Of a stretch of DNA of 36,250 nt, positions 1,631 to 33,402 are shown piece by piece. The stretch is from Myxococcota bacterium (GTDB lineage: Bacteria; Myxococcota_A; Bradymonadia; UBA7976; UBA1532). Every line of letters starts with the position of its first letter. Positions within the stretch are counted from its first letter, which is position 1. The notes beneath the pieces were generated by a model. The model saw nothing but the letters and a program-made list of their open reading frames with translations, was not told the origin of the DNA and searched no databases. The DNA lies in contig JAHJCH010000123.1 of the NCBI GenBank assembly GCA_018813065.1, forward strand, positions 1 through 36,250, read 5' to 3'. The position numbers were made by a program, and so were the translations under genes.

Positions 1631-4015
1631 CTATCGGCGCCGCGCCGCGCCGCGTTGAGGCCGACGCCACGCGAGCGCAAAGGCCAACAACAATATGAGC
1701 GGCGCGCCTCGTGAGCGCCCCGGATCAACCTGGCAACCCCGGCTCACCGCTTGAGCACGCCCAGCCTCTCCCCCCTCGCAAGGCGCGTCCAGGCCGTCGC
1801 AGTCCTGGTCCAGGCCGTCATCGCAGATCTCAAGCGCGCCCGGATAGCGATTCATGTCCGCGTCATCACAGTCGAATGGGACACAGTAGCCATCTTCGTC
1901 AGCGTCAACACAAATACAGCCTTCGTTAATCTGTCCATTGCAATTATTGTCGATCATATCAGCGCATGATTCAGCAACATTAGGATTTATAGATTCGTCG
2001 TAATCATTGCAATCAATGCCAGCACATACGCCATCGCCATCTTCATCATAACAAAAGCATCGATCATCAATTCTCCCATTGCAATCATTATCTTTACCAT
2101 CGTCACATTGTTCAATCGCGCCCAAGTATATATTGGGATCGCTTTCATCACAGTCTGATGTGCCACATCGACCATCTCCGTCAATGTCAATGCAGGCGAT
2201 TGCACAGCCTTCGTCAATTTGCCCATTGCAATTGTTGTCTATGAGATCTTGGCAGCGCTCATGATGCTCTGGAGATATGCTAGAATCACCATCGTTGCAA
2301 TCATCGAGAGAGCATACGCCGTCTCCATCGCGGTCGATGCATCGGCATACACCGACGTCTCTCCAAGATCCAAGATGTGAAAATTCTTCATGTATAACGG
2401 CGAGATAATTACACTCTTGGCCGCGGCCTTCGCATGATTGAAATTCGCAGGCCCTCTCACATATGCCATTTTCACTGCATATTAATCCGTCGTCACATTG
2501 CACAATTTGACCATGTTGATGTGGTGTGCAAGGCTCGCCTTCTGACTTCATCGCGCTGGGAAGGCAGTTTGAGTCGCCCCAAGGTACAATCGCGCAGGCT
2601 TGACCTCTAGGGCAGCTCGGCCAATCTAATTCACAATATTGATATTCGTAGCAGTAAGAGTACATCCAGCCACATTGTTCATAGACACAAGCTGAATTAA
2701 GTGAGTCTGATTCAGATGAACACATCTCTTGTGCGCACCATAGCAGTTCTTGGAAGTATTCGTCATAGTTATATATGGATTGGCAATGATCGATACATTG
2801 CCAATCGCTTAAATTGCAATATTTTGCGCATTCAATGGTTTCACTACATTGTCCATTTGTTACCGTGTTGTCATTGAAACATTCGTTTATCGCATATCCA
2901 CAAATATCATAAACACATTCATCAAAAGATGGCGATAATTCGTCGCAGTTCTCGCTAATACAGAATGAAAGTTCATCTAATTGACCTCTTGCTACATCAT
3001 TTGAGTTAAAATAGCAATCTATATAGCAATCAATTTCACCATTAAAGCATTCATCACGATTAAAACAATCGGAGATTTCAGCACACGTTTCATTTTGAAA
3101 CTCATTATAGCAGTCCATCGGATTACATACATTGAAATTATTACATTCAGCGTTGCATAAACATTGATTTCGGCATCCGCCATCACCATACATAATCCAA
3201 AGAATCCAACTGTGATATGCGTCAACACGCGTTTGAATTGATGGTCCATAGCAGGGGTCTTGATCATTATCATATGGTGAACCAGCACTATTTATACCCG
3301 CGACGGCGTATTGACCATCCGGTAGCAAAGCAAGACCAGGCCCCCCCGAATCGCCAAAGCATATGCCAGATGAACGCCCCTGGCTCGTATATACCGAAGA
3401 TGTAACACGATTCATCATCATCCACGTCGATCTTTTTATGCCATCGCCTTCATAATTGATCGAATCTTCTAGCCCATACCCAATATAAAATAGATCTTCT
3501 CCTTCTAGTCTTTCTATCGGGTTAATATATAAAGGAATCGGGACTTCTGGTGCTGGAATCGCGAGATGCACAAGCCCAATGTCGCCTATTGGGATAATCT
3601 GATCTCTATGAAAGTCTTCATGGTAAAAAATTTGATCCACAGGGAAGAGATTGCCACTGCGAGGGAATCCTTGTCCGCTGTTGCCTGTCGCGCGTGCGTC
3701 TTCGCCAATGTAGAAGTAGATCGTGTCCACGTTCGCGCCAGAGCGACCAAAGCCCTCAAGGCAGTGGGCCGCAGTGAGCACCCACTCCGGCTCAATCAAC
3801 GTCCCTGTGCAAAACGCACCGTAGTATTCTTGGTCATCAAAGATAAAAGTTAACGCGCCGACGCTCGGCCAGCCTGCCTCTCGGCGCCCACCAATGATCG
3901 GCGCTTGGGCTTGGGTCAACGCGGGCGCGGCCTCCTGGGGGGCCTGGCACGCGAGGGGCGAGATCATGAGCGTCAAGAGCGTTAGGCCAGCGGCGTGAAG
4001 GGTCGGTGTGTTCAT
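1631..4015 (-). CDS. secreted chymotrypsin-fold serine protease with Cys-rich repeats, MopE metal-binding repeats and MYXO-CTERM-like tail
   Basis: I place the start at the ATG at 4015 (MNTPTLHAAG...), which puts a hydrophobic signal segment first; the frame is open 57 bases further upstream. Numbered from this start, IIGG at 40-43 is the zymogen-cleavage N-terminus, and the triad is His84 (TAAHC), Asp145 (DIGLVHL) and Ser223 (GDSGGP). Six residues before the Ser is Gly, not the Asp of trypsin, so Arg/Lys specificity is unlikely. Then come two Cys-rich repeats of roughly 70 residues, an EGF-like Cys patch, and four repeats of the DxDGDGxC..DCxD..DNNCNGxIDEGC type seen in MopE-like proteins, presumed to bind Ca or Cu. 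The C-terminus has a Gly-Cys pair, a hydrophobic stretch and an Arg cluster, as in MYXO-CTERM surface-sorting signals. The Cys-rich middle is much more AT-rich than the flanking genes. Confidence 0.9.
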   Translation of the reverse strand: MNTPTLHAAGLTLLTLMISPLACQAPQEAAPALTQAQAPIIGGRREAGWPSVGALTFIFDDQEYYGAFCTGTLIEPEWVLTAAHCLEGFGRSGANVDTIYFYIGEDARATGNSGQGFPRSGNLFPVDQIFYHEDFHRDQIIPIGDIGLVHLAIPAPEVPIPLYINPIERLEGEDLFYIGYGLEDSINYEGDGIKRSTWMMMNRVTSSVYTSQGRSSGICFGDSGGPGLALLPDGQYAVAGINSAGSPYDNDQDPCYGPSIQTRVDAYHSWILWIMYGDGGCRNQCLCNAECNNFNVCNPMDCYNEFQNETCAEISDCFNRDECFNGEIDCYIDCYFNSNDVARGQLDELSFCISENCDELSPSFDECVYDICGYAINECFNDNTVTNGQCSETIECAKYCNLSDWQCIDHCQSIYNYDEYFQELLWCAQEMCSSESDSLNSACVYEQCGWMYSYCYEYQYCELDWPSCPRGQACAIVPWGDSNCLPSAMKSEGEPCTPHQHGQIVQCDDGLICSENGICERACEFQSCEGRGQECNYLAVIHEEFSHLGSWRDVGVCRCIDRDGDGVCSLDDCNDGDSSISPEHHERCQDLIDNNCNGQIDEGCAIACIDIDGDGRCGTSDCDESDPNIYLGAIEQCDDGKDNDCNGRIDDRCFCYDEDGDGVCAGIDCNDYDESINPNVAESCADMIDNNCNGQINEGCICVDADEDGYCVPFDCDDADMNRYPGALEICDDGLDQDCDGLDAPCEGGEAGRAQAVSRGCQVDPGRSRGAPLILLLAFALAWRRPQRGAARRR

Positions 4016-4068
4016 GGCGGGCAGTGTAACGACCCCCGCGCCTGGGATCGAGGCTCTGCGCGCGCCGC

Positions 4069-5067
4069 TCAACGCCCCTTGAGGAAGAAGGGCTCTCGCC
4101 CCCCCGTGAGGATCTCCGCCCCGCCCTTCGTCACCAGGATCGTGTGCTCAAACTGCGCGCTGAGGCTCAGATCCGCAGAGACGGCCGTCCAGTCATCCGC
4201 CCACATCTCGCAGCGATGCGTGCCCATGTTCAGCATCGGCTCGATGGTGAAGGTCATGCCCTCTTGGATCACCCAGGGGTTGCGGCGCTCCTCGTAGTGG
4301 GCGACATAGGGGTCCATGTGGAACAGCTCGCCGATCCCATGGCCGGTGAAGTCACGCACGATGCTGTAGCCGTGAGCCTTGGCGTGGGCCTCGATGACGC
4401 GGCCCACCACGTTGAGCTTGACGCCCGGCTTGACCACGTCGATGCCCTTGAGCAGACACTCCCAGGTCACCCGCACGAGGCGCTCGGCCTCCGGGCTGAC
4501 CTCGCCGACGAAGACCGTCTCCGAGCAGTCGCCGTGCATCCCGTCGAGGTAGACCGTCACGTCGCAGTTGATGATGTCGCCTGCCTCTAGCGGGCGGCTG
4601 TCGGGGATGCCATGGACGACGACCTCGTTGACCGAGGTGCAGAGGGACTTGGGGTAGCCCATGTAGTTGAGCGGGCTGGGGTAGCCGCCGAGCCGGATCG
4701 TCGCTTCATGGGCGATGGCGTCAAGGGCGTCAGTGGTGATCCCCGGGCGCACGGCGGCGAGCACCTCGTCCAAGACCGCCCGCGCCGCCGCGCCCGCGCG
4801 TCGCATCCGCGCGATCTCATCCTCGCTGGTCTTCTTGCAGTCGCGGCTGCGCCCCCCACGTCGGCCACTCTCGGCGTACTCGGGCTTGGGGATGTGCGCG
4901 GGGACCAAGCGCGTGGGGCTGAGCACGCCAGGCCGCACCGTCGGCTGCTTGCGCGCGCGCGCCTCGGGCGGCCGCGTCTCTCCACGCTCATCGCTGGCGA
5001 GGTGGCACTTCTTGTACTTCTTACCGCTGCCACACCAGCAGGGGTCGTTTCGCTTCGGCTGATTCAT
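4069..5067 (-). CDS. map: type I methionine aminopeptidase with N-terminal SEC-C zinc motif
   Basis: This 332-residue cytosolic enzyme removes the initiator Met from new proteins. Residues 10-22 (CWCGSGKKYKKCH) form a SEC-C zinc-binding motif, which some bacteria carry as an N-terminal extension thought to dock the enzyme on ribosomes. A ~60-residue linker follows, then the pita-bread catalytic domain. All expected residues are visible: His152 (VVHGIP), metal ligands Asp169 and Asp180 (11 apart as in E. coli), His243 (TGHGIG), Glu276 (FTIEPM) and Glu307 (QFEHT). The start is an ATG at 5067. It lies 63 bases after the TPR lipoprotein stop and 53 bases before the protease start, on the same strand, so it may be co-transcribed, although its housekeeping role has no evident link to the neighbours. 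Confidence 0.95.
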   Translation of the reverse strand: MNQPKRNDPCWCGSGKKYKKCHLASDERGETRPPEARARKQPTVRPGVLSPTRLVPAHIPKPEYAESGRRGGRSRDCKKTSEDEIARMRRAGAAARAVLDEVLAAVRPGITTDALDAIAHEATIRLGGYPSPLNYMGYPKSLCTSVNEVVVHGIPDSRPLEAGDIINCDVTVYLDGMHGDCSETVFVGEVSPEAERLVRVTWECLLKGIDVVKPGVKLNVVGRVIEAHAKAHGYSIVRDFTGHGIGELFHMDPYVAHYEERRNPWVIQEGMTFTIEPMLNMGTHRCEMWADDWTAVSADLSLSAQFEHTILVTKGGAEILTGGREPFFLKGR

Positions 5068-5130: not shown

Positions 5131-6363
5131 TTAGGCGGCAGGGGCGCCTTCAGCGGGGGCGCCTTCAGCGGGGGCGCCTTCAGCGGGGGTGCCGTCAGCG
5201 GGGGCGCCTTCGCCCGTGGGCTTCGGCTCGCTTGAGGTCGTCTGCGGCTGTAAGGTCTGCGCTTGCTTGAGGAACTGCACGTTTTGGCGAATCGGGTCAT
5301 TGGCGGGTGGATTGGCCGCCGCGAGGTACTTTTCGTAGAAGATCAGCGCCTTTTGGGGCTTGTTGAGCTGCTCTTCGTAGATCTTCCCCGCCCTCAAGAG
5401 CGCCTCAGTGTTCTTTTCGTTGATCTCAAAGCTCTCTTCATAGACCTTGACCGCGCCCTCAAAGTCGCCCGTGCCGTAAAGGGAGTTCGCCTCACCAATC
5501 ATGGCGATATAGTGCTTGGGGAAGCGGGCGCGGACCTTTTGGAATTCTTCTAAGGCTCGTTTGTAGTCAAGGTAGTCAAGGTAGACCGACGCGATATTAA
5601 TCCTTGCCTCATCCATCGTCGGATCAAGCTCAATGGCTTTTTCAAACTCGATCACCGCGAGTGGGACGGTGTTGAGCTTGTAGTATGTCATGCCAAGGTT
5701 ATTATGGGCGCGCGCGTTGTCTTCTTCGTAACCAAGCGCCTTTTTGAACATTAAAAGCGCCAAGGGCAGCTTATTTTCGTTCATGTAAAGGATGCCAAGG
5801 TTAATAATCGCAGGGACGTTCTTGGGTTGAACCGCTAAGACTTCTTTAACATATCTCAAAGCCAGCTTCTCATCGCTCTTGGCGAGGTAAGCCGCCGCGA
5901 TGTTGTTCTTCGCCTGTAAGTCCTTGGGATTTTTGCGTAGAACAGACTCAAACTCAGTGATCGCTAGATCTGGCTGGTTGGTCATTAAGAGAGAGCGGCC
6001 CAGCGCGAGGTTTACCCCCCGGTCGGTGACGTCGTTTTTAATGAGCTGCTTGAATGCCTTGGTGGCGTCTTCATAGCGCCCTAAACGCTCGTAGCTGTAG
6101 GCGAGGTTTAACCAGGCGACGAAATACTTGGGTGAGTCCTTGGTGGCCTGCTCAAAGGCCGTCACCGCGCCTTTGTAGTTGGGGGGCGTCTCTTGGAGCG
6201 CCTTGACGCCTTGCTCAAAGGCGGCGCGAGCGGCGGGGCTGTACTTGCCCAGCTGCTCCTTGGGCGGGGCCGTGGGGATCACAGGCTTGGTCGTCGGCTG
6301 CACGGGTGTCCCTGAGCAGGCCAGGGCGAAGGCCGCCAGCGTCATCGAGAGTGCGCGTCTCAC
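5131..6363 (-). CDS. TPR-repeat lipoprotein, GltE/AglT-like
   Basis: A 410-residue lipoprotein. The signal (MRRALSMTLAAFALAC) has an ALAC lipobox with Cys16 as the lipidated residue. From ~43 to ~375 it is a run of tetratricopeptide repeats with typical spacing (A.NNLG..Y, A...A....P), a protein-protein scaffold. The tail is an EGAPA repeat. The start is GTG at 6363: its G-T-G overlaps the TGA of the upstream gene, and a near-perfect AAGGAGGGG Shine-Dalgarno lies 5 bases before it inside the last codons of that gene. In Myxococcus xanthus a TPR lipoprotein (AglT/GltE) is encoded beside the giant TPR protein AgmU/GltD, and the same pairing is seen here. The Glt name rests on architecture and order, not an alignment. 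Confidence 0.88.
   Translation of the reverse strand: MRRALSMTLAAFALACSGTPVQPTTKPVIPTAPPKEQLGKYSPAARAAFEQGVKALQETPPNYKGAVTAFEQATKDSPKYFVAWLNLAYSYERLGRYEDATKAFKQLIKNDVTDRGVNLALGRSLLMTNQPDLAITEFESVLRKNPKDLQAKNNIAAAYLAKSDEKLALRYVKEVLAVQPKNVPAIINLGILYMNENKLPLALLMFKKALGYEEDNARAHNNLGMTYYKLNTVPLAVIEFEKAIELDPTMDEARINIASVYLDYLDYKRALEEFQKVRARFPKHYIAMIGEANSLYGTGDFEGAVKVYEESFEINEKNTEALLRAGKIYEEQLNKPQKALIFYEKYLAAANPPANDPIRQNVQFLKQAQTLQPQTTSSEPKPTGEGAPADGTPAEGAPAEGAPAEGAPAA
5141..5215 (-). repeat. 15-bp tandem repeat, five copies, encoding the EGAPA tail
   Basis: Plus-strand unit GGGGCGCCTTCAGCG occurs three times exactly (5141, 5156, 5171) and twice with changes (5186, 5201). It stays in frame and encodes the C-terminal EGAPA/DGTPA tail of the TPR lipoprotein, so copy number could vary without breaking the frame. 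Confidence 0.9.
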
Positions 6364-9300
6364 TTCTTCCCCTCCTTGGCGGGCTTGGCGGCAGGCTGAG
6401 CGGCAGGCTTGGCGGCGGGGTTGGCCGCAGCCGGGCTGGCCGTGGCGGGCGCGGCGGGGCCGCTGGCGGGCTTCGTCGCTGGCTTGGCCTTGATCATCTG
6501 CGCCAGCTCACCATCGGGATCGGCGATAAAGGTGGTGCTGAAGGTGGCTGAGACCGGCCACTCGCTGTTGACCACGGCGTCATTGATGATGGGGAAGGCC
6601 TCAGGGCTGAGCTTGACCAGCAGCTCCGCCGAGCGCTGGGACCACTCGTTGTAGACGTGGTTCTCATGGGCCAAGCGCAGCGCGTTGCGCAGCGCCTCGA
6701 TGGACTTCTCATGCAGCGGCGCGGCTTTATCGTCCAGCTCCGCGCGGTAGATGATCTTCTCGTCCTCGCTCAGCTCCTCCGGCGTGGGCAGATCAAAGAG
6801 GCTCTTGGCGAACAGATAGTAGCCTTGTCCAATTCGATAGAGCGCGGCCGCGTTGACCTCGTGTGATTTAAACTCAAGCACCTGGAAAAATATTTTTTCA
6901 GAGTTATTAAGCAGCTCAGCCTTCTTTACAATGCTCTTTCTAAGCACATGCATTGGAAATTTGACCTCAACCGCCTCAAAATCCTCAAAAATATAGTTTC
7001 CTTTCATAAAGAGGCAGCGCGCTGCGGCTTGTCGCACTTTGGGATTGGCTTTCGCCTCATCTGGGAGCTTGTTAAAGGCGTTAAGCGCTGCATTTACTTC
7101 AGCTAAGGCCAGCTTACGCGCGTTGCGCGACCCCATCTTTTGATGCACGAGGGCTTTGCTTAAATAAATCTCAATGATTGTATCAGGGCGAGTCTTGCCA
7201 TAAGCCTTCTTATAGGCGTCATAGGTCTTGAGCGCGTCGCTCCAGTGCTGCTGCTTCTCCTGGAACTGCGCGAGCTGCATGTAGATCTCAGGGATGTCAT
7301 CGCGCTCGGGGAACTTCTTGACGTAGGTCGTGAAGATGTCCTCTGCCTTATTGAACTGCTCTAACGCGGCGCGGATCGCCCCAGCGTTATAGAGCGCGTC
7401 GGCCATTTGAGGCACGTCCGGGAATGAAGCCATCTTCTCGAAGTACTGCGCCGCCGTCTCAAACTCGGTTTGGCTCTCGTAGAGCGCGCCTAAGACAAAG
7501 TGCGCCTCGGTGGCCTGCGGCGCCTTTTGATAAGACCCGATTAGGCGCTCATAGAGGAGGATCGCCTCCTCCGTCTTCTCCGCTTGCTCGTTGATGACCG
7601 CCGCGTTAAAGAGCGCGATGGGCGCCTTTTCATGCTTGGGGAACTCATTGACGAAGCGCATCATCTCCTCTGCGGCCTTGTCCTTTTGTCCCTTCTCGCT
7701 CAGCTCTTGCGCGTACTCATTGATCGAGATCGCGATGACATCGTGGAGCTGCTTTTGTGTCATCACCGCGTAGTTCTTGCGATCGAGCATGTAACGACCC
7801 CATCGCTCCATCTCATGCCAACGACGCAGCCGGTAGTTGGCGTCAAACAGGGTCGCTGCGGCGTGCCCCGCGTACTTGTGCTTGGGGTGGTGCTCCATGA
7901 TCACCTCAAGCCGGTTAATCCCCTCGCCATAGTGACCCTTGTTGATAAAGATCTCAGCGGAGCGGAAAGAGACAAAGGGCACCTCGCTGTCCTTGGGGTA
8001 GTGCTCGACGTACTCTTTGCAGGCTTGGAGGAAGCCCTCTTCTTCATTGCGCAGCGGGGTCTTGGGGATTGGCTTAAATTCTTTGTCGTCCTTCTTGGCC
8101 GTGTAGGTGATCTCCGCCTCCTTGGCCTTGCCCTTGCCCTTCTTGCTCTTGGCGTCCTTCTTAGAGACACGCTTGGGGCGCTCGATGATGCCCGCGTCGG
8201 CCATCTTCTCTTCAGATGCCAGGATCACAGAATACGCAGAGTCCTTGGAGTACTTACCTTTGGGATCACGCGCGACGACGCCACGATAATGCTCCATCGC
8301 CTTATCCCATTTCTTAAACTGGAAGAAGTAGATCTCCGCGAGGTAGAATTGCATCTCATAAAGGCGATCCATCTTGGCTTCAGGGAAGTCAATGAGGTAA
8401 CGCTCGTAATACTCTGCGGCTTTTGTGTAAAGCTCATTTGCGCGTACATCGTCCTTGAGCTTCTCCACTTCTTGGGCTTTGGAGTGATATTTTGAGATGA
8501 TCCAGTCAAGCTCATCTTCACGAAATTGTTTCGCTAGCCCCATCGCGCTTTCATTGTCTTTTTTATCTTTATTGGCAATATACCAGCTGGTTTTTGGCCC
8601 AAGGTCTGCGTAAAAGCGGTTGAAGACCTCATCGATCTTCTTCATATCCTCTGATTTCTTATGGGCCTCAAGGAGCTTCTTGGCGTAGACAGGCAGCTTG
8701 GCGTTCTCTTTGTCGCGGGCGACGAGGTATTCATAGACGGCGATCTCCGCCGCAGTCTGATCTTGACCGCCATAGTTGGCGGCGATGGCCTCCAAGCGCT
8801 CCACCTCCAGCGCCGCGCCGCCCTCCGCGCGGAAGTAGTCCCGCGCGCGCTTCCAGCCGTTGCGCTCGCAGTTGGGCTGATCGGCGGGCTCGCACAGCTC
8901 CGCGTAGGTCATGCTCAAGGCGCCATAGGCTTGCTTGTTGCCACCCTTCTTTTGCAGGGCGACGACCTCTTGGAAGGACTTAATCGCGGACTCATAGTCC
9001 TCGGGGGTGCCCATGTTGAAGTAGACATAGCCCAGCTTGTAGAGCGCGTAGGCGTACTCGCCGCTCTGCTTATCCTCAAGCACCTTGAGGTAGTTGGTCT
9101 TCGCGGCCAAGAGCAGGTCAATATCAAAGTAGTATTCGGCCACCGCGAGGTAGGCGCGGCTGACATACTTGCTCTTGGGGTATTGCTTCGTCAGTCGAAG
9201 CATATAAGAGGCGCCTTGCTTCTTTTGATCGGCGGCATGCAGACCTCGACCAAGATAGAAAATGACTTCATCTAAGCGAGGATAATTAGGGAATTCTTTG

Positions 9301-9758
9301 AGGAGCTTTTTGTACTCTGTGATCGCTAAAGAGTAGTCCGGCTTAGGCTCAACAGGCTCTTTTTTCAACAAACCGCTATGAAGCTGCTCCATTTGCTTAT
9401 CATATTCTTTGCGCGCCAGGAAATAGCGATATTTTGCCTCATCCCACTCCCGCTCTGCGATGCGAAATAATAAGTCCGCGCGTTTCTTATAGAGCGGCTT
9501 ATCCTTGATGATCTTACGCATCTTGCGGATTTGATCTTGGCGGACCTTGGAGAGCTGCTCTTCTTTCTCCGCGATCTTCTGCTCGGTCTTGCTGTCCTCG
9601 ACCTGGCGTAGCGCCTCTGCGTCTTCTTTGGGCTTGATGACGTTCTTGGCGGCAGACTCTGCCGTCGCCAACTCGTCCTTGTCATTCTGGTTCTTCTGCG
9701 CGAAGGCAGGGATCGCGATGAGGAGCAACGCGAGGATGAAGAGGTCACGCGTTTTCAT
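6360..9758 (-). CDS. large secreted TPR protein, GltD/AgmU-like periplasmic scaffold
   Basis: An 1132-residue protein with a clean signal peptide (MKTRDLFILALLLIAIPAFAQ), so probably periplasmic. A charged helical stretch (~22-110) is followed by many TPR or TPR-like repeats spread over nearly the whole length (for example ALYKLGYVYFNMG, AHFVLGALYESQ, ALYNAGAIRAAL). A Lys-rich insert lies near 545-570 and a low-complexity Ala/Pro/Lys tail covers the last ~45 residues. The ATG at 9758 overlaps the TGA of the upstream gene (ATGA), with AGGA 9 bases before. Size and type fit the M. xanthus periplasmic gliding protein AgmU/GltD, a ~1200-residue TPR protein, and the TPR lipoprotein directly downstream supports this. 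It could instead be a generic envelope TPR scaffold. The orthology is inferred, not aligned. Confidence 0.88.
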   Translation of the reverse strand: MKTRDLFILALLLIAIPAFAQKNQNDKDELATAESAAKNVIKPKEDAEALRQVEDSKTEQKIAEKEEQLSKVRQDQIRKMRKIIKDKPLYKKRADLLFRIAEREWDEAKYRYFLARKEYDKQMEQLHSGLLKKEPVEPKPDYSLAITEYKKLLKEFPNYPRLDEVIFYLGRGLHAADQKKQGASYMLRLTKQYPKSKYVSRAYLAVAEYYFDIDLLLAAKTNYLKVLEDKQSGEYAYALYKLGYVYFNMGTPEDYESAIKSFQEVVALQKKGGNKQAYGALSMTYAELCEPADQPNCERNGWKRARDYFRAEGGAALEVERLEAIAANYGGQDQTAAEIAVYEYLVARDKENAKLPVYAKKLLEAHKKSEDMKKIDEVFNRFYADLGPKTSWYIANKDKKDNESAMGLAKQFREDELDWIISKYHSKAQEVEKLKDDVRANELYTKAAEYYERYLIDFPEAKMDRLYEMQFYLAEIYFFQFKKWDKAMEHYRGVVARDPKGKYSKDSAYSVILASEEKMADAGIIERPKRVSKKDAKSKKGKGKAKEAEITYTAKKDDKEFKPIPKTPLRNEEEGFLQACKEYVEHYPKDSEVPFVSFRSAEIFINKGHYGEGINRLEVIMEHHPKHKYAGHAAATLFDANYRLRRWHEMERWGRYMLDRKNYAVMTQKQLHDVIAISINEYAQELSEKGQKDKAAEEMMRFVNEFPKHEKAPIALFNAAVINEQAEKTEEAILLYERLIGSYQKAPQATEAHFVLGALYESQTEFETAAQYFEKMASFPDVPQMADALYNAGAIRAALEQFNKAEDIFTTYVKKFPERDDIPEIYMQLAQFQEKQQHWSDALKTYDAYKKAYGKTRPDTIIEIYLSKALVHQKMGSRNARKLALAEVNAALNAFNKLPDEAKANPKVRQAAARCLFMKGNYIFEDFEAVEVKFPMHVLRKSIVKKAELLNNSEKIFFQVLEFKSHEVNAAALYRIGQGYYLFAKSLFDLPTPEELSEDEKIIYRAELDDKAAPLHEKSIEALRNALRLAHENHVYNEWSQRSAELLVKLSPEAFPIINDAVVNSEWPVSATFSTTFIADPDGELAQMIKAKPATKPASGPAAPATASPAAANPAAKPAAQPAAKPAKEGKK

Positions 9759-11683
9759 TTGCAGACATCCTCTAAATTACTGCGGTAATTATTGATCTCA
9801 TCAGACCAATACTCACCTTCAAAGCCCCAGGTGATGTATTTATCACCGACGAAGATGCTGGCGCGCTTTTGCGCTGCGGCGACGTCCGCCTCCTCTTGCT
9901 TCCCCTGCGCCAGCTCATCGACCTGCTTCGCCAGCTCCTCGGCCTTCACCTCATCGATCTCGATGCGGATCTCTGTCACCTGGATATCCAGGTTTTCAAG
10001 GGACTCACTGAGCCCTTGGAGTAGCTCGCTGATTTTGATGCCTAAGGCGATGCGGTTCTCATGGTGGCGCGTCTCTACCGCATCGATGAGCTTGCGCGTG
10101 AGGGCCTCACCCATCTCGCCAGATCGATCGCGGATCTTGGCCAGCTCACGACGGTACTTCGTCACTGTTACATAGAGATCGTAGAACTCAGTGTTTGAGA
10201 TCACCGCCATGCGCAGCAGGTGGGGGATCTGCACGTTCTCTTTATATTGTTCTAAGACGAACGCGTTGTAGATCTCTTCGGGGAGCGTGTAGGTCTCAAT
10301 GAACTGCGTGAGGGGCTTGCGCAGCGCGAGGTATTGCTTCTCTAAGCGTGTGATCGCGTTGTAGGCAACCTCAAAGTGACATTTGTTCATAAAGACAGTG
10401 GCTTCGAGGAGGTATGTATCTGGGAGGAAGAAGTTCTTCCAATCAGGGCCATCAAGGGTATGGAAGATCCCCATCCCACGCTTTGTGTCTCCCTTGAGGA
10501 AGTATGACCAGCCCGCTTCGTGAAGCGCGTCAACATAGCTCGTGGAGTCGCTGGGGATCTTGCGGTAGTAGAAGATCGCCGCGTCAAAGCTGCTGAGTGT
10601 GTAGGCGATCCGCGCCAAGGCCATGTAGGCGAGGTCACGGATGCGCGGGATGTCGTTCTCTGTAGCGGCGATGACCGCGTTTTGGAACGCGCCGCTGGCG
10701 CCGATGATGTTTTTGGCCCAGTCTTCAGACTCTTCATCATCACCCGCCAGCTGGATCATCACTAACCCCTGGATATATTGAGCGTCAGCGTAGTCATCTG
10801 ATCCAGGTTTAACCGCGCTGAGGTATTTGAGGGCTTCATCTGAACGGTTGTAGTCAAAGAAAAACTTACCTAAGAAGTAGTTATAGCTATCTTGGACTTT
10901 TTGGGGTGCGTTACCGATAAAGTGATTTGTGAGCCCTTCGAGCGTAACAGGGCTGTATGAAATCTGCTTGCTACAGTCGCGTAGGCCAATGAATGCAGGT
11001 ACAAAGACATCGCTGTCGGCGCCAAAGTCAAGGAGCTGATGGTATAGCTCAGCGGCGTTGCCATAGAGGCCCAGCTTGTGGAGGGCCTCGGCCAGGCCCA
11101 GCTTCGCCGAGGCGTGGGCGGTGGTCTTGCTGTTGCCCGCCTGCTCAGAGCTGTCGAGGAACTCGCTGAAGAGCTTGGCGGCCTCGGCGTAGCGCTCGTC
11201 CTTGAGGGCCTCGCGCGCGGCGCTGAGGGCTTGGGCGATCTTGAGCTTGTTCTCTGAGGCGATCCGCTTGCGCTCTTTATCAGCGGCGGCCTTTACGGCG
11301 GCGCGTATCCGCGCCTCTTCTTCGATCTTGGCGCGCTCAACGGCCTCGGACTCTTGCAGCTTTTTGAGTTCATCCTCACCCTCGCCGGCGGGCTCAGGCG
11401 CAGGCTCAGGCGCGGGCGGCGGCGGCGGGGCGGCCTCACCGCCTGCGCCCATCATCACCTCGATGACGGCCTTGGGGACCCCCGCCTGCTCCAACTTGGC
11501 GAGGTCCTGCACTGTGAGGTTAAAGCTGGAGTTGGTGCTCTGGAGGGTCTGGACAATGACTGGGGCGGGCAGCCCCGACTTGTGCATCCCAATGACGTTG
11601 TCGATGGTCAAGCCCACAGCGAGGGCGGCCCCAGTCATGGAGAGTGTCAAGAGCAGGGCGAGGCCCAGCGAGTGTATACGCAT
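9755..11683 (-). CDS. secreted TPR protein, GltC-like
   Basis: About 642 residues from the ATG at 11683, which has GAGGGG 7 bases upstream; a TTG at 11698 in the same frame is the alternative. The signal peptide is MRIHSLGLALLLTLSMTGAALA. Residues ~23-80 form a helical module (VIGMHKSGLPAPVIVQTL ... LEQAGVPKAVIEVMM) that recurs in secreted proteins of these bacteria. A Pro/Ala/Glu linker and a long charged coiled coil (~100-170) lead into TPR-like repeats, and a second coiled coil lies at ~540-600. It sits between the beta-barrel gene (overlapping by a few bases if the TTG is used) and the giant TPR gene (ATGA overlap), so translation is probably coupled. GltC of M. xanthus is a periplasmic TPR protein encoded with the Glt barrels. 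The match in position and architecture is suggestive, not proven. Confidence 0.85.
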   Translation of the reverse strand: MRIHSLGLALLLTLSMTGAALAVGLTIDNVIGMHKSGLPAPVIVQTLQSTNSSFNLTVQDLAKLEQAGVPKAVIEVMMGAGGEAAPPPPPAPEPAPEPAGEGEDELKKLQESEAVERAKIEEEARIRAAVKAAADKERKRIASENKLKIAQALSAAREALKDERYAEAAKLFSEFLDSSEQAGNSKTTAHASAKLGLAEALHKLGLYGNAAELYHQLLDFGADSDVFVPAFIGLRDCSKQISYSPVTLEGLTNHFIGNAPQKVQDSYNYFLGKFFFDYNRSDEALKYLSAVKPGSDDYADAQYIQGLVMIQLAGDDEESEDWAKNIIGASGAFQNAVIAATENDIPRIRDLAYMALARIAYTLSSFDAAIFYYRKIPSDSTSYVDALHEAGWSYFLKGDTKRGMGIFHTLDGPDWKNFFLPDTYLLEATVFMNKCHFEVAYNAITRLEKQYLALRKPLTQFIETYTLPEEIYNAFVLEQYKENVQIPHLLRMAVISNTEFYDLYVTVTKYRRELAKIRDRSGEMGEALTRKLIDAVETRHHENRIALGIKISELLQGLSESLENLDIQVTEIRIEIDEVKAEELAKQVDELAQGKQEEADVAAAQKRASIFVGDKYITWGFEGEYWSDEINNYRSNLEDVCK

Positions 11684-11694
11684 CCCTCGACCCC

Positions 11695-12474
11695 TCAAAA
11701 AAGCATCAGGCCAAGCCCGAAGGAGATTTCCACGGGCTTGGAGATGCCGCCGACGTCTTCAATCTTTTGGAAGAAGTAGTGGCGATACTCGGTGTGGAGA
11801 TTGAATGTTTTGTTGATAAACCAACGAAAGCCGACAATGGTGTTCCCAGCAGGCTTAACTTTAGGGTTACCATCTGGATTGTTCTTGGGATACTCTGTTG
11901 TGTGGAATAGACCCGCGCCTATACCAAAATAAGTGTCAAAGTGCGTAAGTTTCAGACCCATTAGGCTAAATTTCCCATAAATCGGCGCCCAAAGCACATC
12001 AATATTGTAATACATATGGACATATTCCATAATTTTCGCTGCGGTTAAGCCGACTTTATCACCTTCAAGGAATTTGCCCAAGTCAGATGGCACATCTAAG
12101 CTGTATGCGTAGGATGCCTCGATAGAGAATGCTTCTGAGAAGTGATAACCCGCGCGCATTCCCATTGGGTAGTAAGTGAGAAAATCATCGTTGGGGATGA
12201 TCCCCACATAAGGCGTCAGCTCAAGCCGACCATCCTTGAGGTAGAGGCGGCGCTGTACCACCTCTACCTCACGGAGATTTCCCCAGAAGAGGCTTAAATC
12301 CTCCTCCATTCGCCACTCTGCGTCCGTGGCGGTTTGATCTTCAATGGCTGTGGGCGCCGCCGCAGTGGCGTCGTCTAAAGGCACGGCTTCTTGCGCGAAG
12401 GCGGGCAAGGCAAAAGTGGCGAGCAGGGCGCACAGCGAGAGCACCTGATTCATACGATTCATCCGTTTGGTCAT
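11695..12474 (-). CDS. outer-membrane beta-barrel protein, GltA/GltB-like
   Basis: I start it at the ATG at 12474 (MTKRMNRMNQVL...), which gives a normal signal peptide ending ALPAFA|QEA and a ~259-residue precursor. The frame is open to 12627, but the upstream part looks non-coding. The mature protein alternates hydrophobic and polar residues with aromatic girdles (LELTPYVGIIPND, IEASYAYSLDV, FNLHTEYRHYFF) and ends in Phe (GLGLMLF), the usual C-terminal signal for BAM-mediated insertion. It resembles the small outer-membrane barrel family widespread in Myxococcota, to which GltA and GltB belong. It lies between the VWA lipoprotein and the GltC-like gene. Part of the coding region (about 11940-12150) is noticeably AT-richer than the flanks. 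Confidence 0.85.
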   Translation of the reverse strand: MTKRMNRMNQVLSLCALLATFALPAFAQEAVPLDDATAAAPTAIEDQTATDAEWRMEEDLSLFWGNLREVEVVQRRLYLKDGRLELTPYVGIIPNDDFLTYYPMGMRAGYHFSEAFSIEASYAYSLDVPSDLGKFLEGDKVGLTAAKIMEYVHMYYNIDVLWAPIYGKFSLMGLKLTHFDTYFGIGAGLFHTTEYPKNNPDGNPKVKPAGNTIVGFRWFINKTFNLHTEYRHYFFQKIEDVGGISKPVEISFGLGLMLF

Positions 12475-12608
12475 GAGGTCCAAGGTCGAGCGCGTGTCTC
12501 GCCGTGTCTGAAGGGCGGCATGGTGATGAGGACCATCCATCACGCTCGCGGTTAAGTCGTTTTGGTTGATTGAAGTGCTTTGATCAAGGCAAAGCAGGCT
12601 GGATCTGA

Positions 12609-13877
12609 TCACTGCTTTTGAACCCAAAGGCGCGCGTCTTCATAGTCATCCCCGCCATCTTCACGCTGCTTTGTCAGCGTGGTCGGTAGCTTGGTGCCGC
12701 CGACGTTCACAAGGAGATCGGTGGAGATGTAATAATTGTCTGAGCCGTAATCAGGGCTGGAGAGCGTCGTGGTGACGTTCATCCGCCAAGATCCACTCAG
12801 CCGCGCGCGGATGACGTTCTCAAGGCGCTGATAGGCAGAGGTCATCTCCGCAGGCGTCTCAAGGAAGATGTACTCACCGCCTGTACGGCAGGCGAGGTTG
12901 ACCAAAGCAGGATCGCGCCCTGTCTGGAGCCGATAGGGGCTGTTAGCCGGGGGCTGAAGCTCCATGACGATGATCGGGATGGGGCCGTTGGGATCGTTGG
13001 CGTAGGCCGCCGTCATCTCCTCCAAGCTGGAGCGCGTGGAGGAGTCGCCCGTCTCAACGCCATCGGTGAACAGCACGATCAGGGGATTGAGGTTGCGGTT
13101 GGCGTCGATGATCTGTTGCTTCGCGTCTAAGAGCGCGTCGGCGAGGGGCGTCAAGCCGCTGGCCGCACGGTTGATGTTGTCGATCCCCAGCCCGCTGATT
13201 TGCTCACGGTTTAACGTCGGCGTCGCAAACTCTGCTTGAACAACAGGAAAGTCTTTATTAAACCAAATCAGAGAAAAAAACGTGTCTGTTGGCATATTAC
13301 TGATCAAGCTGCGGAAGAACCCGATGCGATCGCCGCTTTTATCGGTAGCAGGGACAGATGTAAAGTCACCCGTTAGCGGATTCTCTCCTACAAGGCTACC
13401 AGAGTGGTCTACCAGGAGCATTAAGAGGTTTGGGTTGTTTTTGCGCCCCTCTCCGCCAGAGTATTCATAGCGGAGGTTGTCAATGCGCAAAGCAAGCCCC
13501 TTAACCAAGCCTGTATTTTGGCCTTCTACACCCGCAGGCTCCGTGAATTGATCAAACTTGACCGCGCCTGGCTTCTTAAACTCAAATTGACTCGAGCCTG
13601 TACAGGTTTGATAGCTTTCATCACAGCTAAACAGCTCGGCGACGGTCTTCGCCTCGCGTACCAACCAGGTCTTCGGCCCGATGGTTTCATTTTGATTAAA
13701 CATCAAGATCGACAGCTCAAGCTGGCTGCCATCATCGGCCAACGCGCAGGCGTTGGGCACGAGCAGCTCAGTGATCTTGACAGATTGGGCATCAAGACCC
13801 ACGGTGGAGTCGCAGCCCCAGAGCGCGAGTACGAAGAGCAAACCCCGAACATGGTTCTGTTTGGGCATCGAGTACAT
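12609..13877 (-). CDS. VWA-domain surface lipoprotein, CglB-like
   Basis: A 422-residue lipoprotein. The signal peptide ends in LALWGC with Cys22 as the lipid anchor. An N-terminal region with several Cys (44, 85, 92) leads to a von Willebrand A domain starting ~150. A metal-ion-dependent adhesion site is visible: DHSGS (Asp157, Ser159, Ser161), Thr243 (GLTPLADAL) and Asp272 (FTDGVETGD). The 5' end is ambiguous: ATG 13877 has GGAG only 2 bases away, while ATG 13868 has it at 11 bases and also gives a good signal peptide. In M. xanthus, CglB is a VWA lipoprotein of about this size acting as the gliding adhesin with the Glt barrels. Its position as first gene of the cluster supports that role here. 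Other VWA lipoproteins exist, so the name is inference. Confidence 0.88.
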   Translation of the reverse strand: MYSMPKQNHVRGLLFVLALWGCDSTVGLDAQSVKITELLVPNACALADDGSQLELSILMFNQNETIGPKTWLVREAKTVAELFSCDESYQTCTGSSQFEFKKPGAVKFDQFTEPAGVEGQNTGLVKGLALRIDNLRYEYSGGEGRKNNPNLLMLLVDHSGSLVGENPLTGDFTSVPATDKSGDRIGFFRSLISNMPTDTFFSLIWFNKDFPVVQAEFATPTLNREQISGLGIDNINRAASGLTPLADALLDAKQQIIDANRNLNPLIVLFTDGVETGDSSTRSSLEEMTAAYANDPNGPIPIIVMELQPPANSPYRLQTGRDPALVNLACRTGGEYIFLETPAEMTSAYQRLENVIRARLSGSWRMNVTTTLSSPDYGSDNYYISTDLLVNVGGTKLPTTLTKQREDGGDDYEDARLWVQKQ

Positions 13878-14305: not shown

Positions 14306-16441
14306 ATGGAAAGAATGCGCTGCCTCATCAAGGCTCCAGGCGTCCGCCTGCTTGGCCTCATGCTCTTGCTCTCTGTCCTTGGAGGCTGCGAAGACAGCGT
14401 TCAAGAGATCAAGAGCGTGAACATTGAGGCCATACCAAACTCATTCCGTTTCTCTAAAGTCACGGTTGGGTATGATGATAAGGCTGAAGTGAGCCTGCTG
14501 AACCCCAGTGAGGGGACAGTCATTATCCGTAAAATTCACATGAACATAAATTCCTTCGAGGAATTTCAACTTGACTGGAGCAGTCAATCACAAGCAGGTC
14601 CTTTCGTCGGCTATGATGCCTCAAAAAAAGATCGTTTCTTATATCCAATTAAAATTAAGCCCGGTGAGACGTTTAAGCTCATCCTGACATATACGCCGCG
14701 AGAAGGCGGCTTGATCGACCCTGCAGATCACATTATGTTAGAGACAAACGTAGAAGAAGAGGGCAAACTTAATTTTAGATTGCCGATTGTCATCAGCGAT
14801 ACTGGCCCTGAGATTCGCGTCAACCCAAGCTCAATCAACTTTGGTCGCGTGCAAAAGAACACCCGCGAGAAACGAGATGTGGTGATCTCTAACTTGGGTG
14901 AGGCGGTTGTTCATATTCGGCAGATCAGCATCAATGGCTCGCTTGATTTCTCGCCATTGGTCGATAATCGCGATGTGCGCATCGATGAAGGCTTGCTCGA
15001 TGACCCCGATAAGGATGGGCGGCCCGGCTTAGCGCCATTTAACCCCGATAACCCCACGATCGGTCAATTTATCGTTCAGGTCGAGTATGCTCCACCGGAA
15101 GAAGGGCCGGATCGCGGCAGCTTGGTGATCCTCAGCGACGATCCCAATAGCCCGGAGCTGATCGTTGATCTCAGCGCCAACGGCGAGACGCCTTGCCTGA
15201 CAGTGACGCCACGCGCCCTGGAGTTTGAGACGAGCCTGGTCAACCGCACAGACTCGCGCCCACTCAGCATTGAGAGCTGCGGTGGCACGCAGCTCACCAT
15301 CAGTGATATTTACATCGCTGACAGCTCAGATCCGGCCTTTGGCGTCGTCGAAGAGAGCCTCCCTGCGATGCCCAGCGTGCTGCCCGCGTTGACGCCGGGT
15401 GAGCTGCCCCCCGCGCGGCAAATCCAAGTGTCCTTCTCCCCCAGGGAGCAGCACATTTATAACGGCACGCTGATCATCGAGAGCGATGATCCGGTCACCC
15501 CCAAGCGCGAGGTCAGCCTCCTGGGGCGCGGCGTGCAGAACGCCTGCCCGCGCGCGGCGGCCACCCAGGATGAGTTCTTCGTCAACCCCCTCGATCCGGT
15601 GATCCTCGACGGCAGCGCCTCGGTGGACCCCGACGGCCCCGGCAACGTCCCTGAGCGCTATGAGTGGGTGGTCACCGCTCGCCCCATGGGCTCCACCTCC
15701 CAGCCCATCGAGAACTTCATCGATCCGCTCCAGCCCCAGGACGGCGGCCCTGACGATGATGTCTACACCCCCACGGCCATGTTCTTCACCGATCTGGCGG
15801 GCACCTACACCATCGAGCTGCGCGTCACCGACAACCTCGGCGCTGGCGCCGCCGCTTGCACCAGCGCCATCGCCGTGGTCACGATCATCGCCAAGCCCGA
15901 CGAGGCCATTCACGTTCAGTTGGTTTGGGATACACCAATGGATGTCAATCAGACAGATGAGGATGGCACAGATCTAGATCTGCATTTCCTTCACCCTCGC
16001 GCCAATAACTGGTTTGATCCAGGGCTAGATTGCTATTTCCGTGATTATGAGCCGGATTGGGGTCAGCAAGGTAACCCCAATGACAATCCGACCCTCGATA
16101 TTGATGATTTTAACGGCGCTGGACCAGAGAACGTCAGCCTCGCGCAGCCTGAGATCATCCTCGATGAGTTCGATGAGGCCCTGCCGTATACCATTGGCGT
16201 TCACTACAACAAGAGCGTGGCGCGGACGACCGGTGAGGAGTTCGGCGCCAGCCACGCCAGCGTGCGCGTCTTCCTCAACGGCGAGATCGCTTGGGACTCC
16301 CAAGAGGCGCTGGGTGGGCTCAAGGAGCTGGAGCGCGAGGGGCACTTCTGGGAGGCGGCGCAGATCTTCTGGCCGGGCGACCCAGAGGCCGCCTATGTCG
16401 AGACGCGGGATCGTTATTTCGAGAGCCCCCCTGGTCTATAA
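14306..16441 (+). CDS. lipoprotein with ASH (choice-of-anchor-D), PKD-like and YfaP/DUF2135-like domains
   Basis: The start is set at the ATG at 14306, with AGGGGG 6 bases upstream; the frame is open to 14240 but the extra residues do not look like a signal. The signal ends in LLLSVLGGC. Residues ~25-410 hold ASH/choice-of-anchor-D beta-sandwiches, recognisable by repeats of the type IxVxPxxINFGxVxxNTxxxxxVxIxNxG and their ends (ILSDDPNSPELIVDLSANG). A PKD-like domain (~414-530, DPVILDGSASVDPDG ... LAGTYTIELRVTDN) and a C-terminal domain (~534-690) with a TDLDLHFLHP motif and WDCYF-like loop follow; the latter resembles the YfaP/DUF2135 type. It is probably on the periplasmic or outer face of the outer membrane. 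It is the first of three paralogues. The first ~170 codons are AT-richer than the rest. Confidence 0.88.
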   Translation: MERMRCLIKAPGVRLLGLMLLLSVLGGCEDSVQEIKSVNIEAIPNSFRFSKVTVGYDDKAEVSLLNPSEGTVIIRKIHMNINSFEEFQLDWSSQSQAGPFVGYDASKKDRFLYPIKIKPGETFKLILTYTPREGGLIDPADHIMLETNVEEEGKLNFRLPIVISDTGPEIRVNPSSINFGRVQKNTREKRDVVISNLGEAVVHIRQISINGSLDFSPLVDNRDVRIDEGLLDDPDKDGRPGLAPFNPDNPTIGQFIVQVEYAPPEEGPDRGSLVILSDDPNSPELIVDLSANGETPCLTVTPRALEFETSLVNRTDSRPLSIESCGGTQLTISDIYIADSSDPAFGVVEESLPAMPSVLPALTPGELPPARQIQVSFSPREQHIYNGTLIIESDDPVTPKREVSLLGRGVQNACPRAAATQDEFFVNPLDPVILDGSASVDPDGPGNVPERYEWVVTARPMGSTSQPIENFIDPLQPQDGGPDDDVYTPTAMFFTDLAGTYTIELRVTDNLGAGAAACTSAIAVVTIIAKPDEAIHVQLVWDTPMDVNQTDEDGTDLDLHFLHPRANNWFDPGLDCYFRDYEPDWGQQGNPNDNPTLDIDDFNGAGPENVSLAQPEIILDEFDEALPYTIGVHYNKSVARTTGEEFGASHASVRVFLNGEIAWDSQEALGGLKELEREGHFWEAAQIFWPGDPEAAYVETRDRYFESPPGL

Positions 16442-16498
16442 GACCCTGCGGCGTGCTTCGCCCCCAACGCCTGTCTTAAAACACAAAAACTCAACCCA

Positions 16499-18562
16499 AT
16501 GAGAGCCTTCATGCGTGACCTCGCCTCTCTGTGCCTCTTGGTCTGCCTCATCGGGTGCAGCGACAAGCAGACCCAAGAGACGCTCCCCATCTTCGACGTG
16601 CGCCCCAGCGCTTGCCAGCCCGGCGAGGGCGACGCCCCCACCCTCTGTGGGCAGATCTTGCTCTCCCAGATCCCCGTCGGTGAGGAGGGGCTGCGGCGGG
16701 TGGAGCTGGTTAACCTCGGCGCCGGCGCGCTGAAGATCCAGGCCCTCCGCCTTGAGGATCGCTCCTCGGCGAAGGAGCTTGAGCTGCTTCAGGCCAGGGC
16801 AGACGGCGCCCTGGAGGCGGCGCCGTCGAGCGCCACGCTGGCTCAAGGCGAGGTCTTGGCCTTGGTGGTGCGCTATCGGCCCACCGACGAGGACGCGGAC
16901 GGCGACGAGGGCGACGTGCGGCTGGCGACCAATGACCCTCGCGCCCGCGAGGCGCGCATCCCCATCTCCACGGGGGGCAGCGGACCTGAGCTGCGCCTGC
17001 GACCCAGCACGCTCGACTTCGGCGCCGTGGACGCGGGCGAGGAGGCCACCCGTGAGGTCACCCTCAGCAACAGCGGCGTGGCCACCCTGCACATCTCCAA
17101 GATGCTGATCAACGGCAGCCAAGACTTCCGGGGTCTCCACGAAGGCGCCGCGCTGGAGGATGTGGCCTACCCCCTGGAGATCGCCTCGGGCGAGAGCCGA
17201 GCCGTGACGCTGATCTACGCCCCCAACGCCACGGGGGCTGATGAGGGCGAGCTTCAAATCGAGAGCGATGATCCCCACGCCCCCATCACCAAGCTGCCGT
17301 TGACGGCCAACGGCGCCGAGGCCTGCCTGCGGCTGAGCCCCAGCGTCCTCGACTTCTCCGCCGCCCTGCGGGTGGACGATCCCAGCGCGCCGACCCCCAA
17401 CCAGCGCGCGCTGAGCGTCCAGAGCTGCGGCCGCAGTGTGCTGAAGGTCAGCCGCGTTGAGTTTGAGCCCGACGGCCCGCTGTTTGGGCTCATCGATGAG
17501 GCCGCTGTGCCCCTGACCTTGCCCGCCAGCACCCCCGGCGAGGCGCTGCCCTCGGATGAGCTGCTCGTGGGCTTCTGGCCCACGACCCTCGGCGCCGTCG
17601 GTGGGCGGATGATCATCCACAGCAACGCCCCTGACAGCCCGCACAGCGTGGACATCTTTGGTCGGGGCGTGGACAACGCCTGCCCGATCCCCGATGTCAG
17701 CCAAGCCATCTATGACGTCGAGCCCCTGGATCAGATCGTCCTCGACGGCGGCCCCTCGATGGATCCGGGCGGCGAGGTCAAGCAGTGGCGCTGGAGCGTC
17801 GTCGAGCGCCCTGACGGCAGCGTCTCCATCCCCTTTGAGCGCTTCACCGAGCCCCGCTACCCCGCTGAGGGCGGCGATCCAGATGATCCAGAGACGCCCA
17901 CGGCGGTCTTCTTCGTCGATCTGGCGGGTCACTACACGTTGGAGCTGAGCGTCGTCGATAACCTCGGCCAGCCCAGCTGCCCTCCCCTCGCCGTGGCGCG
18001 GGTGGAGATCAACGCCATCCCCTCCAAGGATCTCCACATCCAACTCGTGTGGTCTACGCCTGATGATCCCGATGAGACGGACGGCTCAGGCACCGACGTG
18101 GATCTGCACCTCAAGCACCCCAACGCCGCCGATCTCTGGGGCGAGGCGGCGGGTGGCTGGGACTGCTACTTCGCCAACACAGGGCCGGACTGGGGCGTGG
18201 CGGGGGACGTGGTGGATAACCCCACGCTGGACATCGATGATCGCAACGGCGCGGGGCCGGAGAACATCAACCTGAGCCGCCCCGAGGTGGGCGCGCGCTA
18301 TGAGGTCGCTGCCCTCTACTTTAAGGCAGAGAGCACGTTCAACCAGCCCGACGCTGACCCACGTCAATCGCACATCAGCTATGTCACTGTGCGCTTATTC
18401 GTGCGTGGCGATCTGCTCGGTGAGTTCATCGACGCGCCGCTGACCCAGGTCGGTCAGCTGTGGCGCGTCGCCGAGATCGAGTGGTGTGAGGACTTCAACC
18501 GCTGCCCAGTCATCACCCCGATTGATGAGATTCTCGCCGAAGAAGAGTATAACCGCCCATAA
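16499..18562 (+). CDS. second ASH/PKD/YfaP-like lipoprotein, paralogue of the gene upstream
   Basis: A 687-residue lipoprotein with lipobox LVCLIGC. The architecture matches the preceding gene: ASH-type sandwiches (~30-395), a PKD-like domain (~395-503, DQIVLDGGPSMDPGG ... LAGHYTLELSVVDN) and the C-terminal module (~511-640) with GTDVDLHLKHP, a WDCYF loop and DIDDRNGAGPENINL, nearly the same words as in the upstream protein. This is clear evidence of tandem duplication. Base composition is much more uniformly GC-rich than in the first copy. The start may be ATG 16499 or ATG 16511; the second has a weak GAGAG before it and gives a tighter signal peptide. The 57-base gap to the gene upstream suggests one operon. 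Function beyond an envelope location is unknown. Confidence 0.9.
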   Translation: MRAFMRDLASLCLLVCLIGCSDKQTQETLPIFDVRPSACQPGEGDAPTLCGQILLSQIPVGEEGLRRVELVNLGAGALKIQALRLEDRSSAKELELLQARADGALEAAPSSATLAQGEVLALVVRYRPTDEDADGDEGDVRLATNDPRAREARIPISTGGSGPELRLRPSTLDFGAVDAGEEATREVTLSNSGVATLHISKMLINGSQDFRGLHEGAALEDVAYPLEIASGESRAVTLIYAPNATGADEGELQIESDDPHAPITKLPLTANGAEACLRLSPSVLDFSAALRVDDPSAPTPNQRALSVQSCGRSVLKVSRVEFEPDGPLFGLIDEAAVPLTLPASTPGEALPSDELLVGFWPTTLGAVGGRMIIHSNAPDSPHSVDIFGRGVDNACPIPDVSQAIYDVEPLDQIVLDGGPSMDPGGEVKQWRWSVVERPDGSVSIPFERFTEPRYPAEGGDPDDPETPTAVFFVDLAGHYTLELSVVDNLGQPSCPPLAVARVEINAIPSKDLHIQLVWSTPDDPDETDGSGTDVDLHLKHPNAADLWGEAAGGWDCYFANTGPDWGVAGDVVDNPTLDIDDRNGAGPENINLSRPEVGARYEVAALYFKAESTFNQPDADPRQSHISYVTVRLFVRGDLLGEFIDAPLTQVGQLWRVAEIEWCEDFNRCPVITPIDEILAEEEYNRP

Positions 18563-18653
18563 CCGCGCCTGCGCCGCGCCCCCAGATTTCAAACCATGTG
18601 AGATCATCCTGCGTTGGGGATCTCCTCATATTTTATGCTACGAGGTCCACGGC

Positions 18654-26778: not shown

Positions 26779-26901
26779 CCTTTAATTGTGACATTTTCTC
26801 GGCCATCACCCCAGCGCTGCGCGCTGGGGCAGGCGCTCTGCTGCAGAAAAAATCCGCTTCGCAGATTTATTTCTTTGCTCCGGCCTGTCCGCCTTGAGCG
26901 G
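26779..26901. other. divergent intergenic region rich in small hairpins (left half)
   Basis: This stretch lies between the coiled-coil gene (minus) and the His-rich lipoprotein gene (plus). It contains inverted repeats at 26809-26829, 26837-26847, 26850-26868 and 26888-26902, and an AT-rich part next to 26779-26800. The same style of hairpin continues to 26985. No clear -35/-10 pair is seen. Confidence 0.6.
26809..26829. repeat. perfect inverted repeat, 9-bp arms
   Basis: Arms CCCCAGCGC and GCGCTGGGG with a TGC loop. It is not followed by a T-run in either direction, so it is not an ordinary intrinsic terminator. Confidence 0.9.
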
Positions 26902-33333: not shown

Positions 33334-33402
33334 GGGGCGCCTTTAAGGGCGAGGCCGCGTGATAACTTGGCGCCACACAATGACCACACCAGGGGCCTGC
33401 CC

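Follow-up and report, generated by a model that had tools for sequence, protein, structure and literature searches.

A Glt/Nfs-type envelope operon carrying genes for a candidate MIDAS adhesin, conserved across an order of Bradymonadia

The window, by which we mean the whole stretch of 36,250 nucleotides that was analysed, is the entire contig C344 of a Myxococcota genome assembled into 361 contigs and 89.6% complete. Five open reading frames (ORFs) are present at positions 5131-13877, all on the minus strand and in the order VWA lipoprotein, barrel, gltC, gltD and gltE, exactly as the preliminary description had placed them. Three ASH lipoprotein genes lie divergently beside the VWA gene (14306-21719, plus strand). 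These features, with the evidence on which each assignment is based, are the following.

12609-13877, minus strand: VWA/MIDAS surface lipoprotein of 422 aa, candidate adhesin (PF00092, invariant MIDAS, AlphaFold, Foldseek)
11695-12474, minus strand: 8-stranded outer-membrane barrel of the GltA/GltB family (TIGR04565, hhalign, AlphaFold, Foldseek)
9755-11683, minus strand: GltC/NfsC-family periplasmic TPR protein (NF033756, tree)
6360-9758, minus strand: GltD/NfsD-family secreted TPR protein of 1132 aa (alignment to canonical GltD, trees)
5131-6363, minus strand: GltE/NfsE-family TPR lipoprotein of 410 aa (NF033758 below cut-off, operon position)
14306-16441, plus strand: ASH/choice-of-anchor-D lipoprotein 1, divergent (NF012200; the ORF opens at 14240, with an SD-preceded start at 14306)
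16499-18562, plus strand: ASH/choice-of-anchor-D lipoprotein 2, divergent (NF012200)
18654-21719, plus strand: ASH lipoprotein with a C-terminal VWA domain, MIDAS adhesin/CglD-like (the ORF opens at 18486; NF052240, NF033765)

The five minus-strand genes had been described as joined mostly by overlapping start and stop codons, which is accurate for part of the operon. Clear overlaps, each of 4 nt, occur at two junctions only, GltC/GltD (9755-9758) and GltD/GltE (6360-6363), whereas the barrel and gltC genes are likely preceded by short gaps, because their likely starts lie further in than the ORF openings: the gltC ORF opens at 11698 with a likely start at 11683, and the barrel ORF opens at 12627 with a likely start at about 12474-12453. 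With these starts, roughly 11 nt separate the barrel gene from gltC, and 135-155 nt separate the VWA gene from the barrel gene. A promoter scan of the operon region gave nothing above chance.

The products of these genes had been proposed to form a CglB/Glt set. At the level of sequence, profiles and alignments confirm homology to Glt/Nfs for GltC, GltD, the barrel and, more weakly, GltE, but not the assignment of the VWA protein to CglB. The small outer-membrane barrel scored 106 bits against TIGR04565 (cut-off 60) and, in hhalign profile-profile comparisons, matched both M. xanthus GltA (99.65%, E = 5e-25, 233 columns) and GltB (99.4%, E = 3e-21). Its AlphaFold model has eight strands and is confident in the barrel part only (mean pLDDT 65), and the barrels of OprF and OmpA were among its best Foldseek matches. 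The GltC-like protein matched NF033756 over residues 95-646 (E = 1.8e-52, short of the equivalog cut-off of 450 bits); ahead of this profile match lie about 60 N-terminal residues (IxxMxxxGLPxxVI..., 11452-11617). The GltD-like protein is 30% identical over about 990 aa (E = 5e-110) to the canonical GltD of genome G058, a reference in which GltC exceeds the curated cut-off and GltG reaches 500 bits, below the cut-off of 650. The GltE-like protein matched NF033758 over residues 8-350 (E = 7e-22), below the cut-off, and generic TPR models score as well or better; this assignment, drawn from generic TPR similarity and operon position, is the least certain of the four. A sequence search of the PDB with the VWA and GltC-like proteins returned just weak generic matches.

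The description of the first product as a VWA lipoprotein with an intact metal site holds, with the lipobox cysteine (Cys22) and the complete MIDAS (D-x-S-x-S, T, D) both invariant in 13 homologues. The AlphaFold model (pLDDT 85.3, pTM 0.85) places beta regions N- and C-terminal to the VWA domain, and the significant Foldseek matches were VWA-domain proteins. Its reading as CglB fared less well. The sole NCBIfam match at E <= 10 is indeed the CglB model NF033757, with 11.6 bits (cut-off, 200 bits; E = 0.098) over 20 residues of the MIDAS, and the protein was absent among the matches listed for an NF033757 search of its own genome at 1e-3. The hhalign comparison with CglB yielded a probability of 5%, which is weak evidence, since the same procedure with thin alignments also missed the links from this protein to two other VWA families. 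In a reciprocal test, an HMM built from CglB reference sequences (M. xanthus, Corallococcus and Archangium) did not rank the operon VWA protein (E = 0.62) above other adhesins. Identity with CglB is thus unproven, as the sequence does not set the operon protein apart from any other VWA adhesin, and there was likewise no profile match to the MIDAS adhesin model NF052240. The operon VWA protein may nevertheless work like CglB. Lone paralogues of this VWA family, with no Glt neighbours, were found at loci L056, L066 and L070-L073 (genomes G011, G008, G002 and G009). In addition, the second family of the order encodes another VWA protein (L041 in G014:C9 and L050 in G013:C168) that is closer to CglB (E = 1e-27 and 1e-22, respectively) than the operon VWA protein.

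A survey of gene order in related genomes recovered all five genes in the same order in ten other genomes of the order, spanning two families, and an eleventh locus (G010) contains four of the five genes before the contig ends. Such a conserved gene order is not chance. Among these relatives, GltD is 48-63% identical to the window protein, and the VWA protein, mostly 27-42% identical, is the fastest-diverging protein of the operon; an adhesin-type VWA lipoprotein is nonetheless encoded at the head of the operon in every member of the order seen. The conservation extends to the divergent genes. ASH lipoprotein 1 adjoins the VWA gene in all 13 loci, ASH lipoprotein 2 adjoins lipoprotein 1 in every locus whose contig extends that far, and the third ASH gene, combining ASH and VWA domains, has an orthologue of 47-54% identity in eight of the nine extended loci. 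The product of this third gene matched the MIDAS adhesin model NF052240 (E = 1e-10) and the CglD model NF033765 (E = 5e-9), both below the cut-off. The Bradymonas-type genome G020, which is labelled as belonging to the same class, shows the corresponding gene order of a VWA-like gene, two barrel genes, gltC, gltD, gltE and gltJ, with the window proteins as their best matches. The MIDAS of its VWA protein is degraded, with ENSGG in place of DxSxS, so that metal-dependent adhesion may not be universal. Two further window genes, encoding a trypsin-like protease (1631-4072) and a sulfatase (21746-23911), both carry MopE putative metal-binding motifs.

The absence of gltF-J genes, noted in the preliminary description, is true for the window, in which no GltG/NfsG gene was found, but not for the locus in relatives or for the rest of the genome. 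In relatives, a gltJ-like gene lies directly downstream of gltE and encodes an MJ0042 zinc finger, a transmembrane segment and a myxo_SS_tail; the gltJ-like genes of three of these loci scored 191, 158 and 77 bits against GltJ (cut-off 450). The genome to which the window belongs contains gltJ as pieces on contigs C353 and C321 only, detached from the operon, together with two GltG proteins, one scoring 407 bits (C262) and the other 296 bits (C179) against a cut-off of 650. The refutation set in the preliminary description, which called for a genome devoid of any AglRQS or GltG-J homologue, therefore does not apply. The searches of this genome covered GltC, GltD, GltG/J, CglB and motor genes. 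The truncated ORF at 2-1621 of the window was considered as gltJ and rejected, for it has no zinc-finger N-terminus.

The same genome also contains a separate, canonical gltC-D-E cluster on contig C225 (GltC, 405 bits). In the GltD and GltC trees, the window-type proteins form one clade (SH-aLRT 100 and 92, respectively), which falls outside another clade that unites M. xanthus GltD and GltC with the C225 type (SH-aLRT 97 and 96). For GltD, the AU test rejected the grouping of the window type with M. xanthus GltD (p = 4e-6) as well as with the canonical copies of the class (p = 3e-6); its grouping with NfsD, which involves a long branch, was not rejected (p = 0.217). By these trees, the GltC and GltD proteins of the window are not orthologues of the gliding Glt proteins of M. 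xanthus. The suggestion that the operon represents a minimal or ancestral form is therefore not upheld, given the coexisting canonical cluster, the separate clade and the gltJ gene at the locus in relatives. After the canonical cluster (L126) come a LolA-like gene and genes for an ABC transporter of the FtsX/LolCDE type, as judged by eye. A further Glt-like fragment, in G000:C56 (L139:1010-3668), has genes for a pair of small TIGR04565 barrels and, after them, one for a divergent protein of the GltC type, with no gltD beside it.

Regarding the motor, the earlier statement that no AglRQS genes are seen here is correct insofar as the window has no AglQS-like pair, but two TolQ/ExbB genes are present at 30304-32288, though as part of a TonB2/TtpC-type energising operon (29667-34539) in which genes for DUF3450, TolQ/ExbB, TolQ/ExbB, ExbD, TonB and TPR proteins stand in a row. 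We rejected this TolQ/ExbB pair as the motor, the set with ExbD and TonB being of the TonB2 type, and the other TolQ/MotA matches of the genome belong to TolQ-TolR-TolA sets or MotAB-like pairs, or stand as single copies. A tandem ExbD pair, the signature of AglQS, was not found in this 89.6%-complete assembly, yet each of the twelve other genomes searched, among them M. xanthus, has such pairs; those checked in the relatives G001, G012 and G014 are part of a 'core complex' that also includes TolQ, GltD and GltG. Because the pair was not found, the motor is either missing or on unsequenced DNA; the absence could be genuine or reflect a gap in the assembly. Immediately upstream of the TonB2/TtpC-type operon (26269-28738) lie genes for two lipoprotein-like proteins with no family match, one with a His-rich tail, for which a link to metal uptake is possible.

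Compactness had been taken as an unusual trait of the operon, a premise that does not stand: nfsA-H of M. xanthus is already a single operon with the order barrel-C-D-E, and the split glt genes are the M. xanthus condition (PMC3858216). Luciano et al. reported single loci for the core complex in other bacteria (PMC3169522), and among other Myxococcota we found barrel-barrel-gltC-D-E operons to be common. In the canonical Glt loci L143 (G058), L144 and L200, a gene for a MIDAS lipoprotein lies upstream of the barrel gene; L147 gave a weaker match to the VWA profile. The compact locus of G058, an uncultured Deltaproteobacteria MAG (JAADFL010000025), shares with the window the order VWA lipoprotein, TIGR04565 barrel, gltC, gltD and gltE, but it belongs to the canonical Glt clade, has gltG and gltI/J in the cluster, and encodes a VWA protein that matches the MIDASAdhsBdello/CglD models, whereas the window VWA protein does not. 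G058 also has an ASH-VWA gene divergent from a second Glt-like operon. The Bdellovibrio MIDAS lipoprotein adhesins Bd0875 and Bd1483 (PMC11003981) resemble the operon VWA protein in having a lipobox and a MIDAS domain between N- and C-terminal beta regions; they differ in that the operon protein does not match NF052240, and we found no such operon context in PMC11003981. Thus, the compactness of a Glt-type operon is already known, while for the set of MIDAS and ASH lipoproteins combined with its own GltC/GltD clade we found no description in the open-licence literature.

Taken together, the locus probably codes for the outer-membrane and periplasmic components of a Glt/Nfs-class complex that spans the envelope, belongs to a paralogous lineage separate from the gliding Glt system of M. 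xanthus and is equipped with its own adhesins. Glt and Nfs are themselves paralogous motor-driven surface transporters (PMC3858216), and the nearest alternative is an Nfs-like machine for transporting or packing a polysaccharide or coat at the surface; the VWA protein would then be a structural lipoprotein or one that binds the polymer. The identical barrel-C-D-E order in one operon, the paralogous family and the tree kinship with NfsD left unrejected by the AU test all speak for it, but we saw no VWA gene in the part of the M. xanthus nfs cluster that we read, whereas the window type has VWA and ASH lipoproteins; Nfs has NfsG and is devoid of a GltJ paralogue (PMC3858216), whereas gltJ, not nfsG, follows the operon in relatives; and we noticed no genes for polysaccharide export in the window. 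We consider this reading unlikely.

The view of the preliminary description, that this is the true gliding Glt/CglB system of the lineage with the VWA protein as functional CglB, appears quite improbable. The module types do match those of M. xanthus Glt (GltA-K, AglRQS and CglB), namely a GltA/B-type barrel, GltC, GltD, GltE and a surface VWA lipoprotein, with the GltJ type added in relatives. Moreover, a VWA lipoprotein heads the canonical Glt operons of G058 and a few others, and gliding has been reported for Bradymonadales (PMC7188933). Against these points stand the separate canonical gltC-D-E cluster of the same genome, the distinct GltC/GltD clade with the rejected grouping of M. xanthus GltD, and a VWA protein with no CglB-specific similarity; the window also differs from M. 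xanthus Glt in its single operon and in the AglQS pair not found in its assembly. That last result, along with the displacement of gltJ from the operon in this genome, would fit a static, outer-membrane-anchored adhesin scaffold in which the barrel and TPR proteins just assemble and present the VWA and ASH lipoproteins, free of any motor. However, the TonB-like inner-membrane partner GltJ is at the locus in the relatives checked, and tandem ExbD pairs were found in every other genome searched, which makes a motor-free scaffold rather doubtful as well.

We therefore favour a distinct envelope module of the Glt/Nfs class that brings its own MIDAS adhesins, found order-wide and in a Bradymonas version, whose function we infer from homology and gene order as regards assembly of the complex, adhesion, energisation by a motor and a role in motility or predation. 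In such a module, the eight-stranded barrel of the GltA/B type would join GltC, GltD and GltE, all TPR proteins, in an outer-membrane platform reaching into the periplasm, on which the VWA lipoprotein would bind prey, neighbours or the substratum via its metal site, with the divergent ASH lipoproteins, one with a VWA domain of its own, extending or varying the adhesive layer. An inner-membrane TonB-like protein of the GltJ/GltG type would couple this platform to a proton motor of the TolQ-TolR-TolR type, which could then pull on the complexes and their adhesins or load them with force, providing traction for gliding or serving contact-dependent predation. This picture is in line with the loading of CglB onto the outer-membrane Glt complex in M. 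xanthus (PMC12288465) and with the gliding and contact-dependent preying of Bradymonadales (PMC7188933). More tentatively, the locus could represent an undescribed motor-coupled Glt/Nfs class of Bradymonadia-type bacteria, in which a barrel-TPR-GltJ module carries dedicated MIDAS/ASH adhesins and places the binding of prey or surfaces directly under force control.

In this relative of predatory bacteria, adhesion and force transmission thus seem to share one gene cluster, which represents a separate and undescribed branch of the family of machines that drive Myxococcus motility and form its spore coat. There is accordingly at least one more Glt/Nfs lineage, and in it the outer-membrane module is genetically tied to a MIDAS lipoprotein of the surface. 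This bears on the role of Glt/Nfs members outside gliding and sporulation, and opens to test whether VWA adhesins serve such machines as generic tips that can be swapped, as CglB is in M. xanthus. The apparent presence of the system in Bradymonas sediminis places it in a cultured, reportedly weakly gliding predator.
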